Shown piece after piece: positions 40,111 to 45,662 of a stretch of 64,000 nt of DNA. Made by a program: the position numbers and the translations under genes. Each line of letters opens with the position of its first letter. Position 1 is the stretch's first letter. This DNA comes from Qipengyuania sphaerica (GTDB taxonomy: Bacteria > Pseudomonadota > Alphaproteobacteria > Sphingomonadales > Sphingomonadaceae): contig NZ_JAIGNR010000001.1 of assembly GCF_019711595.1 (NCBI RefSeq), positions 682,001 to 746,000 on the forward strand, given 5' to 3'. Under the pieces are notes generated by a model. That model saw only the letters and a list, made by a program, of their open reading frames with translations. It made no database searches and was not told where the DNA came from.

Positions 40111-40866
40111 ATGGCAACACTACCGTTTTACGAAACACGCGCGGAATGGGGGCGCAGGCTTGCGCTGGCGGCAGAACCTTGCGCCGACGACGCACGCCCA
40201 CCGCGTTTCGGCCTGTTGTTGCAGGAACTGCTGTGGCCGGTGCTTCCCTTCATGCGCCGGTTCGAACCGGAGCTTGTGGTACGGCCCGCCCTTCGCCCGC
40301 AAACGGTCATGCTCCTGCCCGGTTTCGGCGCCCATCCCATTCGCATGCGCTGGATGGCACGCAAGCTGGAACGGGCCGGGCACGAGGCCAAGAAATGGGG
40401 CCTCGGCTACAATCTCGGCGCGAACAAATGGCGCTTCAAGCGGGTCGAGAAACGTCTCAAGAAACTCTACAAACGCAACAAGCAGCCTGTCACGCTGGTC
40501 GGTTGGAGCCTTGGCGGCGTGATGGCGCGCGAACTGGCGAAAAAACATCCCAAGAAGGTGGCTAAGGTCATCACGATGGGCTCTCCGTTTTCGGGCAGTC
40601 CGCGTGCGAACAATGGCTGGCGTGCTTACCAGGCGATTGCGGGCCACCGGGTGGACGAGCCGGAAATCGACACGGTCGTTTCCGAAAAGCCGCCGGTCGA
40701 AACGGTCGCCTTCTGGAGCCCGCGCGATGGCGTGGTTGCGCCCAAATGCGCCTGTGGCAAGCCCGAGGAGCGCGATCGTGCGGTGGCGCTGCGCTGCACG
40801 CACATGGGTTTCGTGATGACCAACGAGTCCATGTCGGCGCTTCTTTTGGAACTGGACCGCGCCTGA
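40111..40866 (+). CDS. Alpha/beta hydrolase, lipase/PGAP1-like
   Basis: 251 residues. Oxyanion strand VMLLPGFGAHPIRMRWMARKLERAGH is followed by the nucleophile elbow GWSLGG with Ser133; FWSPRDGVV supplies an acid and CTHMGFV the histidine near residue 232. A lysine-rich stretch (KWRFKRVEKRLKKLYKRNKQ) precedes the elbow and may bind acidic lipids. No signal peptide. It lies 62 bases before the Anbu cassette on the same strand but has its own gap, so co-transcription is possible but not shown. Substrate unknown. Confidence 0.83.
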   Translation: MATLPFYETRAEWGRRLALAAEPCADDARPPRFGLLLQELLWPVLPFMRRFEPELVVRPALRPQTVMLLPGFGAHPIRMRWMARKLERAGHEAKKWGLGYNLGANKWRFKRVEKRLKKLYKRNKQPVTLVGWSLGGVMARELAKKHPKKVAKVITMGSPFSGSPRANNGWRAYQAIAGHRVDEPEIDTVVSEKPPVETVAFWSPRDGVVAPKCACGKPEERDRAVALRCTHMGFVMTNESMSALLLELDRA

Positions 40867-40928: not shown

Positions 40929-42356
40929 ATGACCGGCTCTGCCGACTTCTTCAACGAGATGCGCGAGCCCGATGGCAGTGTGCGCTCCGCCTACTCCGAT
41001 TATTGCCAATGGTACGACGGGCAGGACCCCAAGCTCCTGCGCCGCAAGCATGACGAGGCGGAAACCAACTTCCGCAAGACCGGCATCACCTTCAACGTCT
41101 ATGGCGAGGACGAGGCCGAAGAGCGGCTGATCCCCTTCGACATGGTGCCCCGGATTATCGATGCTGGCGAATGGCGGCGGCTGAGCCGCGGGATCGAGCA
41201 GCGCGTATCTGCGCTCAACGCCTTCATGCACGACCTTTATCACCGGCAGGAAATCGTGCGCGCCGGAAGGCTGCCCGAGCGGCTGTTGCGCAATAACGAG
41301 GCCTGGCTGCCCAATATGGTCGGCTTCACCCCGCCGGGCGGGGTCTACACCCACATCGTCGGCATCGATCTCGTGCGCACCGGACCGGACGAATTCTTCG
41401 TGCTCGAGGACAATGCGCGCACACCGTCGGGCGTCAGCTACATGCTGGAAAATCGCGAAACCATGATGGCGATGTTCCCCGAACTGTTCCTGCGCTGTCC
41501 GGTGGAAAGCGTGTCGGACTATCCGCGCCGCCTGGCCAAGAGCCTCGCCGCCTGCGCGCCCGAATGCGCCGAGGAGCGCCCCGTAGTCGCGGTGCTTACG
41601 CCCGGCATCTACAATTCCGCCTATTTCGAACATGCCTTCCTTGCAGACCAGATGGGCGCCGAGCTCGTCGAGGGCAGCGACCTTCGCGTGGTCGATGGGC
41701 GCGTGGCGATGCGCACGACCAGCGGCTACAAGGCGGTCGACGTTATCTATCGGCGCGTGGACGACGAATTCCTCGACCCGCTCACCTTCAATCCCGACAG
41801 CGTGCTTGGCGTGCCGGGCATCATGGATGTCTACCGCGCGGGCGGCATAACCATCGCCAACGCGCCCGGCACCGGTGTGTGCGACGACAAGGCGATCTAT
41901 TCCTTCATGCCCGAGATCGTAGAGTTCTACACCGGCGAGAAACCGCTGCTGCCCAATGTCGAGACTTGGCGCTGCGCGGACGAGGACAGCCTCAAATACG
42001 TGCTCGACAACTTGGCCGAGCTGGTGGTGAAGGAAGTTCACGGATCGGGCGGCTACGGCATGCTGGTCGGGCCCGCCTCGACTAAGAAGGAAATCGAGGA
42101 ATTCCGCGCCAAGATCGTCGCCGATCCCGAAGGCTATATCGCGCAACCGACGCTCTCGCTCTCGACCTGCCCGATCTTCACCAAGAAGGGCCTCGCGCCG
42201 CGCCATGTGGATCTGCGCCCCTATGTCCTGGTCTCGCCCGACAAGATCGACATTACGCCCGGCGGCCTGACCCGCGTGGCGCTTAAGGAAGGCTCGCTGG
42301 TGGTAAACTCCAGTCAGGGCGGCGGGACCAAGGACACATGGGTGCTAAAAGACTGA
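40929..42356 (+). CDS. Circularly permuted type 2 ATP-grasp protein (Anbu cassette)
   Basis: 475 residues of the COG2308 (DUF404/DUF407) group. Recognisable segments: FNEMREPDGSVRSAYSDY at the N-terminus, GIDLVRTGPDEFFVLEDNARTPSGVSYMLENR, KAVDVIYRRVDDEFLDP, and VVKEVHGSGGYGMLVGP with the ATP-binding Gly-rich loop. ATP-grasp enzymes join a carboxylate to an amine using ATP, so this is the predicted peptide or amide ligase of the cassette. AGGGGA lies before the ATG. Its stop overlaps the next start (TGATG). Confidence 0.93.
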   Translation: MTGSADFFNEMREPDGSVRSAYSDYCQWYDGQDPKLLRRKHDEAETNFRKTGITFNVYGEDEAEERLIPFDMVPRIIDAGEWRRLSRGIEQRVSALNAFMHDLYHRQEIVRAGRLPERLLRNNEAWLPNMVGFTPPGGVYTHIVGIDLVRTGPDEFFVLEDNARTPSGVSYMLENRETMMAMFPELFLRCPVESVSDYPRRLAKSLAACAPECAEERPVVAVLTPGIYNSAYFEHAFLADQMGAELVEGSDLRVVDGRVAMRTTSGYKAVDVIYRRVDDEFLDPLTFNPDSVLGVPGIMDVYRAGGITIANAPGTGVCDDKAIYSFMPEIVEFYTGEKPLLPNVETWRCADEDSLKYVLDNLAELVVKEVHGSGGYGMLVGPASTKKEIEEFRAKIVADPEGYIAQPTLSLSTCPIFTKKGLAPRHVDLRPYVLVSPDKIDITPGGLTRVALKEGSLVVNSSQGGGTKDTWVLKD

Positions 42357-43300
42357 TGCTGGGACGGACTGCCAACGGCCTCTTCTGGATGTTCCGCTAT
42401 CTCGAGCGGGCCGAGAACACAGCGCGCCTGCTCGACGCAGGGCTTCGCATGGCACTAACCCGCGACCTTGTGACGGCAGAGGAAGAATGGCGCTCGGTCA
42501 TCGCGACCTCGGGCCAGAAGACCGCCTATGAGGCAAAGCACGCGAGTTACACCGGCATGCAGGCATGGAACTTCCTGCTACGCGAAAAAAGCAACCCGGC
42601 CAGCATCCTGTCGATGTTCGGCCTCGTCCGCCAGAACGCGCGGCTGGCCCGTAACGCGATCAGCGGCGAGCTGTGGGAAGCGATCAACGAGAACTGGCTG
42701 ATCATCGACGAGCAGCTGGCCAAGCCAGTTGGCGAGAACCGCGTGCTCGACACGGTCAAGACTATTCGCCGTGCCGGTACCATGGCGCGTGGGGCGCTGC
42801 AGGGTTCGATGCTGCGCGAGGAGGGCTATCACTTTGCGCTTGCGGGCATGTTCATCGAGCGCGCCGATGCCATCGCGCGCATTCTCGATATCAAGTATTA
42901 CCTGCTGCTGCCCTCGCTTTCTTACGTAGGTTCGAGCCTCGATACGGGGCAATGGGACACGGTGCTTCGCTCTGTCTCGGGCGACCGCGCCTATCGCTGG
43001 CTCAACGCGGCGCAGGTCGATGCGCGCGGGATCTGCGAATTCCTGATCCTCGACGACCGCTTTCCGCGCAGCCTTGCTTTCTGCCATTCGGAACTGCGTT
43101 CGAATCTCGCCGCGCTTGCACGGATCCATGGCAGCGAGGGAGAGAGCAATGCGCTGATGCGCGATGCCGATACGCGGCTAACCAATCTGACGATCGACGA
43201 GATTTTCGATCAGGGGCTGCACGAATTTCTCGTCGAATTCACCTCCTGCAATGCAGCGATCGGCAATGCCATTGCCCAAGATTACAGGTTCCTTGCCTGA
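42356..43300 (+). CDS. Alpha-E domain protein (DUF403, Anbu cassette)
   Basis: 314 residues starting MLGRTANGLFWMFRYLERAENTARLLD, the standard start of this all-helical family; an ATG six codons upstream is open but lies inside the ATP-grasp stop region and is not conserved. Conserved segments include FLILDDRFPRSLAFCHSEL and FLVEFTSCNAAIG. The biochemical role is unknown; it always travels with the ATP-grasp and transglutaminase genes and is thought to be its partner. One-base overlaps at both ends bind it to its neighbours. Confidence 0.92.
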   Translation: MLGRTANGLFWMFRYLERAENTARLLDAGLRMALTRDLVTAEEEWRSVIATSGQKTAYEAKHASYTGMQAWNFLLREKSNPASILSMFGLVRQNARLARNAISGELWEAINENWLIIDEQLAKPVGENRVLDTVKTIRRAGTMARGALQGSMLREEGYHFALAGMFIERADAIARILDIKYYLLLPSLSYVGSSLDTGQWDTVLRSVSGDRAYRWLNAAQVDARGICEFLILDDRFPRSLAFCHSELRSNLAALARIHGSEGESNALMRDADTRLTNLTIDEIFDQGLHEFLVEFTSCNAAIGNAIAQDYRFLA

Positions 43301-44118
43301 TGCGCTTATCCATCCGCCACACCACCCGCTATCGCTTCGACACTCCGGTAATCCATGCGCTCCAACGCCTGCGCCTGACGCCGAAGGAAACGCAAGGGCA
43401 GGAAATCCTCGAGTGGGAGATGGAATACGAAAACGCGCATGAAGAGCTGACCTATGAGGACCAGCACCACAACACCACGACGCTGGTCGGAGTGGAGCCG
43501 GAAACGAGAGAGGTCACCATCACCTGCCGCGGCAAGGTCGACACGAGTGATCATGCGGGCGTGATCGGGCGCCATGCCGGGCATCTTCCGCTCTGGAGTT
43601 TCCTTTCGCAAACGCGGCTGACGCGTCCCGGGCCAGGAATGAAGAAGCTCATCGCAGACCTCCGGAATTTCGACGGCGAGCGGCTGGACATGTTGCACGA
43701 ACTGTCCCGCAGCACTCTCGCGCGCGTCGAATACCAGATCGGCAAGACCAACTGGAACACCAGCGCCGAGGAGGCATATGCGGCCAAGAACGGCGTGTGC
43801 CAGGACCACGCCCACATCTTCATCGGCGCCGCGCGGGCGATGGATGTGCCGGCGCGCTATGTATCGGGCTACCTGATGATGAACGACCGGATCGAGCAGG
43901 AAGCGACTCACGCCTGGGCCGAGGCCTATGTCGAGGGGCTCGGCTGGGTCGGCTTCGACATTTCCAACGGCATCAGCCCGGACGAGCGCTATGTCCGCGT
44001 TGCCACGGGGCGCGATTATCGCGATGCCTCGCCCGTGACCGGCATCAGCTTCGGCAATACGAGCCAGATGCTGGAAGTCGACGTCGAGGTCGAACAGCAG
44101 CAAGTACAGCAGCAGTAA
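43300..44118 (+). CDS. Transglutaminase-family protein (Anbu cassette)
   Basis: 272 residues from the ATG overlapping the previous stop. N-terminal bacterial transglutaminase-like domain starts RLSIRHTTRYRFDTPV. The catalytic triad is intact: Cys167 in NGVCQDHAHIF, His204 in THAWAEAYV and Asp220 in WVGFDISNG. The C-terminus ends in a Gln-rich tail. Such proteins may act as peptidases or amide-forming or -breaking enzymes; here it is predicted to work on the same substrate as the ATP-grasp ligase. The Anbu gene follows after 13 bases. Confidence 0.93.
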   Translation: MRLSIRHTTRYRFDTPVIHALQRLRLTPKETQGQEILEWEMEYENAHEELTYEDQHHNTTTLVGVEPETREVTITCRGKVDTSDHAGVIGRHAGHLPLWSFLSQTRLTRPGPGMKKLIADLRNFDGERLDMLHELSRSTLARVEYQIGKTNWNTSAEEAYAAKNGVCQDHAHIFIGAARAMDVPARYVSGYLMMNDRIEQEATHAWAEAYVEGLGWVGFDISNGISPDERYVRVATGRDYRDASPVTGISFGNTSQMLEVDVEVEQQQVQQQ

Positions 44119-44131
44119 CGAAAGAAAAACA

Positions 44132-44881
44132 ATGACCTATTGCGTGGGAATGAAGCTCGACAAGGGCCTTGTGCTGATGAGCGACACGCGCACCAATTCG
44201 GGCGTCGACAATATTTCGGTCTTCCGCAAGATGTTCACCTGGCAGGTGCCGGGCGAGCGTATCATCACACTGATGACGGCGGGCAACCTCGCCACCACGC
44301 AGGCGGTCATCAGCCAGCTCGAAGAGCGCACCAAGGAACCCGACGAGCGGGACAATATCCTGCTGAAAACGCCGACCATGTTCCAGGTCGCGACCGAAAT
44401 CGGCAACCTCATGCGCGGTATCATCGGCGACCGGCAGGATGCCAACGGAGCGCGAGGGAAGGGCCGCTTCACGGCCTCGATCATCGTGGCTGGCCAGATC
44501 AAGGGCATGGAGCCGCGCTTGTTCATGGTTTACCCGGAAGGAAATTTCATCGAGGCCAGCCTCGACACGCCCTTCTTCCAGATCGGCGAGACCAAATATG
44601 GCCGCCCGATCATCATCCGCGGCTACGACCGACAGATGAGCCTCGAGGACGGGGTCAAGCTGCTGATGGTGAGCTTCGATTCCACGCTAAAGGCTAATCT
44701 GTCGGTGGGACTGCCACTGGACCTGCAGGTAATCGGGCGCGACACCTATGAAGCGAGCCACCAGCACCGCGTCGGCCATGACGATAGTTACTTCTCGGCG
44801 ATTTCCGCAGGGTGGGGCGATGCGCTGAAAAATGCGTTTCACTCGCTGCCGGACTACAGTTTCTATCGCCCGGAAGACTGA
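44132..44881 (+). CDS. Anbu proteasome-type peptidase
   Basis: 249 residues. After removal of the initiator Met, the chain starts TYCVGMKLDKGLVLMSDTRTN: Thr1 as nucleophile, Asp17 and a Lys near position 32 give the proteasome catalytic pattern. The rest follows Anbu (ancestral beta subunit; COG3484), with ITLMTAGNLATTQAVI and the C-terminal GWGDALKNAFHSLPDY. Anbu proteins assemble into open helical or ring forms and substrates are unknown. It closes the four-gene cassette with ATP-grasp, alpha-E and transglutaminase, suggesting ligation and proteolysis of a shared peptide. Confidence 0.94.
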   Translation: MTYCVGMKLDKGLVLMSDTRTNSGVDNISVFRKMFTWQVPGERIITLMTAGNLATTQAVISQLEERTKEPDERDNILLKTPTMFQVATEIGNLMRGIIGDRQDANGARGKGRFTASIIVAGQIKGMEPRLFMVYPEGNFIEASLDTPFFQIGETKYGRPIIIRGYDRQMSLEDGVKLLMVSFDSTLKANLSVGLPLDLQVIGRDTYEASHQHRVGHDDSYFSAISAGWGDALKNAFHSLPDYSFYRPED

Positions 44882-44995: not shown

Positions 44996-45020
44996 ATGCG
45001 CAGCCCTCCGGATTGTGACT

Positions 45021-45662
45021 ATGAATCCGGCCATGGAACAGCGACTTACCCTTCATATCGTGGATGGTTCGTGCCGCTCGCGGGCAGAGCAGGCTCGCCT
45101 CGGGTTCGAAATGGGCCATCACTGCGAAATCTACTCCGATGTTGCGGAACTGATGACGCTTCCCCCCGAAGACGGCATTGTCCTTGCCCGCGATGATCAC
45201 GGGGAGGGGTGCGCTGCAATCGTGCTGCGGGCGCTCGGCGATGCGGGGATATGGATACCCGTGGTGGGGACTTCGGTAGAACCGCGGCCGGGCCAGGTCG
45301 TCACCGCGATCAAGGCCGGTGCTCTGGATTATTTGCGTTTGCCGCTGCGGCAGGAAAGGCTTGGGGAGACGGTCGCACGGATCAGGCGCGAGGCGATCGC
45401 CTATGGCGAAGCGCGCCGCAAGATGGTCGAAGCGCGCAGCCGGATCGCCAGCCTGTCGCCTCGCGAACGCGAAGTGCTCGACTGGCTCGCCGAAGGGCGC
45501 AGCAACAAGATGATCGCGCGCGAGCTGCATATCAGCCCGCGAACGGTCGAAATCCACCGCGCCAACATGATGACGAAACTGGGCGCACATCATGCCGCCG
45601 AAGCCGTGCGCCTCAGGATAGAAGCCCACCTCGACGGCGGACAACGCGTGCAGGTGGGATAG
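45021..45662 (+). CDS. LuxR/FixJ-type regulator with degenerate receiver
   Basis: 213 residues from the ATG at 45021; a GTG at 45015 and an ATG at 45033 are alternatives and none has a strong ribosome site. The C-terminal 65 residues are a LuxR-type HTH: SPREREVLDWLAEGRSNKMIARELHISPRTVEIHRANMM. The N-terminal ~125 residues have a receiver-like pattern but the segment IVLARDDHGEG lacks a well-placed phospho-acceptor and the lysine region reads YLRLPLR, so phosphorylation may not be used. It may sense a ligand or partner. Located between Anbu and an extensin-like gene on the opposite strand. Confidence 0.8.
   Translation: MNPAMEQRLTLHIVDGSCRSRAEQARLGFEMGHHCEIYSDVAELMTLPPEDGIVLARDDHGEGCAAIVLRALGDAGIWIPVVGTSVEPRPGQVVTAIKAGALDYLRLPLRQERLGETVARIRREAIAYGEARRKMVEARSRIASLSPREREVLDWLAEGRSNKMIARELHISPRTVEIHRANMMTKLGAHHAAEAVRLRIEAHLDGGQRVQVG

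Follow-up and report, generated by a model that had tools for sequence, protein, structure and literature searches.

The locus described here raises the question of what the enzymes of an Anbu operon act on. It lies in a window of 64,000 nucleotides from Qipengyuania sphaerica (contig NZ_JAIGNR010000001.1, positions 682,001 to 746,000; coordinates below count from the first letter of this whole stretch), in which a first-pass annotation had proposed a bacterial tagging system that builds and destroys a peptide or isopeptide tag on an unknown target. Both the four-gene cassette and the tagging idea have appeared in the literature before (Valas & Bourne 2008 and Iyer et al. 2009, through citations in PMC6376114 and PMC5666114), with the proposal of tagging or peptide synthesis credited to Iyer et al. 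2009 in the available text of the two citing papers. The available text of PMC6376114 (2017) states that hypotheses on the role of the operon lacked experimental confirmation, and that of PMC8665760 (2021) describes Anbu as a protein without known function. The comparison of cassettes presented here points to a narrower answer, in that a glutamine-terminated tail within the cassette, absent from the first-pass annotation, is a candidate acceptor.

The cassette occupies positions 40929-44881 on the forward strand, in the order ATP-grasp, alpha-E, transglutaminase-like protein (TGT) and Anbu. The positions of the open reading frames (ORFs) agree with the earlier description of four adjacent same-strand genes, with one-base stop/start overlaps at the gene 1/gene 2 and gene 2/gene 3 junctions and a gap of 13 bases between TGT and Anbu. 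Its family assignments for all four genes likewise stand (Pfam and PDB sequence relatives), and alignments and sequence reading support its claim of intact catalytic residues in the ATP-grasp loop, the TGT triad and Anbu Thr1/Asp17. Gene 1 (40929-42356, 475 aa) spans the full PF14403 model (CP_ATPgrasp_2, positions 1-374 of 374, 548 bits), which identifies it as a circularly permuted ATP-grasp type 2 protein. A PDB sequence search aligned it over residues 6-475 with its solved relative 3n6x (E 6e-194), and in its HGSGGYG loop (about 42039-42059, forward strand) residues G372, G374, G375, Y376 and G377 are invariant in a 12-row alignment. Gene 2 (42356-43300, forward strand, 314 aa) is an all-helical alpha-E protein matching positions 1-293 of 294 of PF04168 (Alpha-E, 284 bits), with the ER motifs E17-R18 and E168-R169 invariant in a 53-row alignment. 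Its structure model is well defined (mean pLDDT 89.7). No solved relative was found by sequence in the PDB, nor any PDB fold match at E <= 0.001; the best reached only E 0.36 and the alpha-E fold therefore offers no functional lead.

Gene 3 (43300-44118, forward strand, 272 aa) matches PF01841 (Transglut_core, 79.5 bits) and PF08379 (Bact_transglu_N, 70 bits). Its triad of Cys167 (43798-43800), His204 (43909-43911) and Asp220 (43957-43959) is invariant in a 17-row alignment, and its model (mean pLDDT 94.2) matches the fold of 3isr, also a sequence relative, at E 1e-20; triad and fold together mark it as a bacterial transglutaminase-like protein. It ends in a glutamine-terminated C-terminal tail, EQQQVQQQ (residues 265-272, 44092-44115, forward strand), and this ending is conserved. 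Proteins of the Anbu family form an open split-ring or lock-washer assembly and carry a C-terminal helix H5. Gene 4 (44132-44881, forward strand, 249 aa; PF00227, Proteasome, 41 bits) belongs to this family, its five best PDB sequence matches all being Anbu or Anbu-type (5loy at E 2e-83, then 5nyj, 5nyf, 5nyw and 5lox, to 3e-62), followed by a 20S beta subunit at E 6e-05, so that it is nearer to known Anbu than to HslV or 20S beta. Thr1 (44135-44137), Asp17 (44183-44185) and Lys32 (44228-44230) are all present on the forward strand, corresponding to the catalytic Thr1, Asp17 and Lys32(33) named for Anbu in the available text of PMC6376114. The genome of the window has one PF14403 match and one PF04168 match. 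Another proteasome-family gene lies outside this locus and, from a 204-residue frame, is probably HslV.

The locus is thus an ordinary Anbu operon, a further member of the published four-gene kind, in which the circularly permuted ATP-grasp, alpha-E and the TGT-like protein make up a ligase module and the proteasome-fold Anbu is attached to it. It resembles the operons of Yersinia bercovieri and Pseudomonas aeruginosa (PMC6376114, PMC5666114) in its four families, their order, the Anbu residues Thr1/Asp17/Lys32 and the 3n6x-related ATP-grasp, and no difference was found between it and the available descriptions of those operons, which leave the glutamine tail unmentioned. As far as the available text of PMC6376114 reports, no peptidase activity of Anbu on 20S substrates was found, nor any specific binding of Anbu to the other operon proteins, the TGT carrying a C-terminal FLAG tag. 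Without any added acceptor protein, the Yersinia ATP-grasp produced phosphate from ATP, and neither Anbu nor Gln or Glu stimulated it. PMC5666114 cites work in which Anbu was upregulated in P. putida under nitrogen limitation, and the available text of PMC5491218 describes an NtrC-dependent Burkholderia cluster that joins DUF404/407 and DUF403 to a pair of TGT genes, for which it does not show Anbu membership. PMC3710099, considered as a paper on DUF403, was discarded, as the text match was only the start of DUF4037.

Searching 200 Pseudomonadota genomes for Anbu (threshold E 1e-3) gave a match in 69, that of the window included, and the stretches around all 68 others were retrieved, some of them short at contig ends. 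The canonical four-gene order on one strand, with gaps below 700 bases, occurs at 40 loci including the window, a recurrence far beyond chance. The canonical order is also kept, across a wider gap, by at least one further locus (L050). Aligning TGTs from these 200 genomes gave operon-type TGTs away from Anbu, as well as another TGT type, adding 40 and later 18 more stretches, and plasmid records supplied 19 further loci. An ATP-grasp alignment yielded the top 80 among 590 confirmed relatives, hence near kin of the window and mostly Alphaproteobacteria. The assembled set holds 178 cassettes in which ATP-grasp is a gene of its own, open-ended ones left out, and almost all of these comparative data come from Pseudomonadota. 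A TGT was called operon-type when it scored at least 235 bits to a profile built from the 40 canonical TGTs. By script, the Thr1/Asp17/Lys motif is present in 121 of 122 operon Anbus, the remaining one having Ser1. Comparison with other Anbu clusters had been suggested as a way of finding a fifth conserved gene; when six-frame ORFs of 90 aa or more lying up to 3.5 kb from 134 cassettes were clustered, neither such a gene nor a separate tag gene emerged, the commonest flanking family occurring in 14 of 91 representative loci.

What does recur is the end of the TGT. Operon-type TGTs are nearly always glutamine-terminated, with Gln as the last residue in 110 of 133 complete proteins and at one or both of the final two positions in 129 of 133, compared with 43 and 95 of 1326 control ORFs from the same loci; since these controls are six-frame ORFs and not all genes, the other proteins of the same cassettes are the cleaner control, and among them Gln stands in the last two positions in 3/134 ATP-grasps, 8/134 alpha-E proteins and 6/119 Anbus. 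Addition of the later plasmids changes the TGT counts to 111/135 and 131/135. The ending persists when the TGTs are thinned to below 90% identity (Gln last in 101/122, in the last two in 118/122), 70% (72/90 and 86/90), 60% (44/56 and 52/56) and 50% (15/21 and 20/21). Across 56 representatives with total lengths of 261-296 residues, Gln occupies position -1 in 79%, -2 in 68% and -4 in 52%, giving a pattern of approximately Q-x-Q-Q that is set by the C-terminus and not by an alignment column. Many species have a repetitive tail (QSQSQS), and the Enterobacterales relative in the set, a Klebsiella TGT, ends in SQQAQQQ. Four of the 133 (L063, L117, L121, L212) have no Gln in the last two residues, and reading the end of the L212 TGT in three frames revealed no shifted tail. 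The tail is new relative to the literature searched, in which, including the available text of PMC6376114 and PMC5666114, it is not mentioned; an earlier mention is possible, subscription papers such as Iyer 2009 and Valas & Bourne 2008 being outside the scope of the search.

The distribution of the tail narrows what it could serve. Gln is found in the last two residues of 116/119 TGTs with an adjacent Anbu and of 13/14 without one, and the tail persists in each of the eight genomes that have an operon-type TGT and no Anbu match at E 1e-3 (G043, G107, G147, G163, G190, G191, G194 and G197), some of which are in many contigs such that an Anbu could be missed; the tail is therefore not for Anbu alone. 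The catalytic Cys is replaced by Gly, Ser or Ala in three of 134 operon-type TGTs beyond that of the window (L039, L219, L220), each of which still carries the tail; the tail therefore is not for TGT self-catalysis alone either. Glutamine runs (at least three Gln in six residues, within the last 40 residues; control 48/1447) also occur on other proteins. In cassettes adjoining the other TGT type, a run is present on alpha-E in 11/18 and on ATP-grasp in 2/18, although 10 of the 11 alpha-E runs share one family code (f21) and represent approximately one lineage, and four of the 18 were scored as tail-less in the assembled set. The alpha-E of a further cassette of this class (L263) has a terminal Gln and no run, and is left out of the 11. 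Where no TGT adjoins, alpha-E has a run in 5/25, one of these (L053) lying inside a helix and so rejected as a tail; not all cassettes have the tail, and it is missing from most of those that no TGT adjoins. Matches inside a strand of the TGT (L067, L226) were rejected as well, as were alpha-E matches in cassettes with an operon-type TGT, mostly inside the last helix (e.g. QQIEQDYRF).

An ATP-grasp tree of 65 of the 178 rows, rooted at the midpoint, places all operon-type rows in one supported group of 34. Two members of this group are the clearest cases of a tail placed on another protein: L259 (Caballeronia) has no adjoining TGT and its alpha-E ends in MQSQTQSQSQSKG, and L257 (Sphingomonas) has a TGT without Cys or tail and an ATP-grasp ending in QGQQSQIQTQGVR. 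None of the three proteins of L262, another member of the group, carries a tail, and the TGT of this cassette is also missing the Cys. Because the tail is kept without Anbu and without the Cys, and Gln runs appear elsewhere on alpha-E or ATP-grasp, its distribution fits an association with the ATP-grasp/alpha-E ligase module rather than docking to Anbu or self-catalysis by the TGT.

This behaviour leads us to propose, tentatively and at somewhat short of an even chance, that the TGT tail is the cassette's own acceptor, extended or capped by the ATP-grasp ligase and trimmed by Anbu where Anbu is present. The terminal carboxylate of the tail would be converted by ATP-grasp into an acyl phosphate, and by joining an amine or amino acid there the same enzyme would extend or cap the chain. 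Alpha-E would present the tail or complete the complex, the TGT would bear the tail and, with an intact Cys, might transfer or release the product, and Anbu, where present, would trim the tail. The proposal is made because ATP-grasp ligases require a carboxylate substrate (PMC6376114, available text), such a group is available on the tail, at a conserved final residue, and a precedent exists in RimK, an ATP-grasp that adds Glu at the C-terminus of RpsF, from which the protease RimB takes it off (PMC11957791, available text). Both systems would pair an ATP-grasp ligase with a dedicated peptidase and, should the acceptor reading prove right, would use the C-terminus of a protein as the acceptor; a conserved C-terminus is present on the TGT, and we infer its acceptor role. 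However, RimB is a retropepsin and RpsF a ribosomal protein, whereas the acceptor candidate here is a protein of the cassette. RimK also stands outside the circularly permuted ATP-grasp family. Several observations count against the acceptor reading, namely the phosphate release by the Yersinia ATP-grasp without acceptor protein or stimulation by free Gln (PMC6376114, available text), the few alpha-E runs in cassettes without TGT, the four tail-less cassettes of the other TGT type, the near-single lineage of the alpha-E runs, the four TGT exceptions and L262. If it is true, a C-terminal peptide ligase would have as its trimming partner an enzyme with a proteasome fold. In any case the tail gives the enzymes of the operon a concrete and testable substrate candidate inside the cassette, and the C-terminal FLAG on the TGT in the published pull-down (PMC6376114, available text) would cover such a tail, the Enterobacterales evidence here being the Klebsiella ending and not a Yersinia TGT.

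The main rival, possible but rather doubtful in our judgement, is that the tail is not a substrate but a peptide for docking, which would keep the ligase module assembled, for instance through alpha-E or ATP-grasp. This would explain most of the data as well: the tail is short, C-terminal and kept without Anbu and without the TGT Cys, and in the TGT model of the window it follows the last strand (residues 256-266) with its final two residues at low confidence, as would be expected for a linear motif. Placement on TGT, alpha-E or ATP-grasp according to species is, however, less expected for a docking peptide than for a movable substrate, and no specific interaction with Anbu is reported in the available text of PMC6376114, though the TGT there carried its C-terminal tag. 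Docking on Anbu itself, with activation similar to that of HslV by the HslU C-terminus, has some background, in that PMC6376114 (available text) discusses, for Anbu, activation of the HslU type through inserted C-termini, but it is very improbable given that 13 of the 14 cassettes without an adjacent Anbu, and the eight genomes without an Anbu match, retain the ending.

The published view, in which the operon is a general tagging system for some other protein and the tail is a side issue, accounts for amide-forming enzymes and a peptidase sharing an operon (an argument of Iyer et al. 2009, cited in the available text of PMC6376114 and PMC5666114). It appears improbable to us, as no tag gene or fifth gene recurs among the flanking six-frame ORFs, where the largest family reaches 14 of 91 representatives, and the tail is left unexplained. 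Transglutaminases act on Gln side chains (PMC6376114, available text), and the tail glutamines could accordingly be acyl donors for cross-linking by the TGT itself; retention of the tail in the three Cys-replaced TGTs, together with conservation of the very end as the particular spot, makes this highly unlikely. Least credible is a neutral low-complexity ending or the product of repeat slippage, since repetitive tails and exceptions are matched against a presence in nearly all representatives below 50% identity and the use of both Gln codons, terminal residues being encoded by CAG in 60 and CAA in 51 cases (728 and 118 in the body of the proteins).

Pup-proteasome systems, like the Anbu cassette, bring together a ligase, a peptidase with the proteasome fold and a protein whose last residue is Gln. 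Pup, however, is a separate small protein, attached to lysines by an unrelated ligase, whereas no separate tag gene was seen among the flanking ORFs of the 134 Anbu cassettes. In PEARL pathways, which use a carrier peptide, and in primed cyanophycin synthesis (CphA1 primers), a peptide grows on a pre-existing peptide end, and the Anbu cassette may be likened to them by description in this one respect. An extension of the acceptor reading, which we consider unlikely though worth stating, is that the cassette is not a general tagging system but a carrier-bound peptide assembly line, perhaps in nitrogen metabolism, in which the Gln tail of one of its own proteins would be the primer on which ATP-grasp builds a short peptide or polymer, released by Anbu or TGT. 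The primer carrier would usually be the TGT, with its catalytic Cys dispensable, and Anbu would in that case be a product-releasing peptidase and not a protein-degrading proteasome.

Among the plasmid records, Deinococcus and Paenibacillus each contribute one cassette with a separate ATP-grasp gene and no Gln run, and a Granulicella plasmid has, by score, only a fused ATP-grasp/alpha-E gene. The single Tsukamurella plasmid cassette has a separate ATP-grasp gene and carries a Gln run on the ATP-grasp.

The four-gene Anbu operon of the window (40929-44881, forward strand) is preceded by an ORF judged by eye to encode a hydrolase-like protein (40111-40866) and followed by one judged likewise to encode a LuxR-type regulator (45015-45662). 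Each of these families recurs in just 10 of the 91 representative cassette loci, and we therefore regard both flanking ORFs as local synteny only.

No ATP-grasp, alpha-E or transglutaminase (TGT) gene is seen in the retrieved stretch, some stretches being short at contig ends, at 8 of the 68 other Anbu loci (L041, L045, L046, L051, L056, L062, L069 and L089), and in two Pseudomonadota genomes (G095 and G187) the three-gene cassette is sited elsewhere in the genome, away from Anbu. A distinct cluster type was observed at seven loci (L037, L042, L043, L047, L048, L054 and L064), where Anbu adjoins a very large TGT of about 1100 aa. These clusters also contain a second TGT, and they encode ATP-grasp and alpha-E twice, once fused in a single gene and once as a separate pair. 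Cassettes are also plasmid-borne: a conjugative plasmid of Klebsiella pneumoniae (L283) bears the cassette with Anbu included, and those on Sinorhizobium meliloti pSymB (L260) and a Rhizobium leguminosarum plasmid (L285) have no adjoining Anbu.

Within the alpha-E protein (42356-43300), two ER segments, RYLERAENTARLLD and MFIERADAIARILD, are alike, and E17-R18 and E168-R169 are each invariant in an alignment of 53 rows. Compared by eye, the two segments suggest an internal duplication. The predicted alpha-E model matched no PDB fold at E <= 0.001.

The TGT ORF of a Burkholderia stagnalis plasmid (L262) lacks the catalytic Cys and carries a Gln-rich insertion ahead of the His motif in place of the C-terminal tail. 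Among operon-type TGTs (at least 235 bits to the canonical profile), the terminal Gln codon (44113-44115 in the window) is CAA in 51 of 111, compared with 118 of the 846 Gln codons in the body of these proteins.
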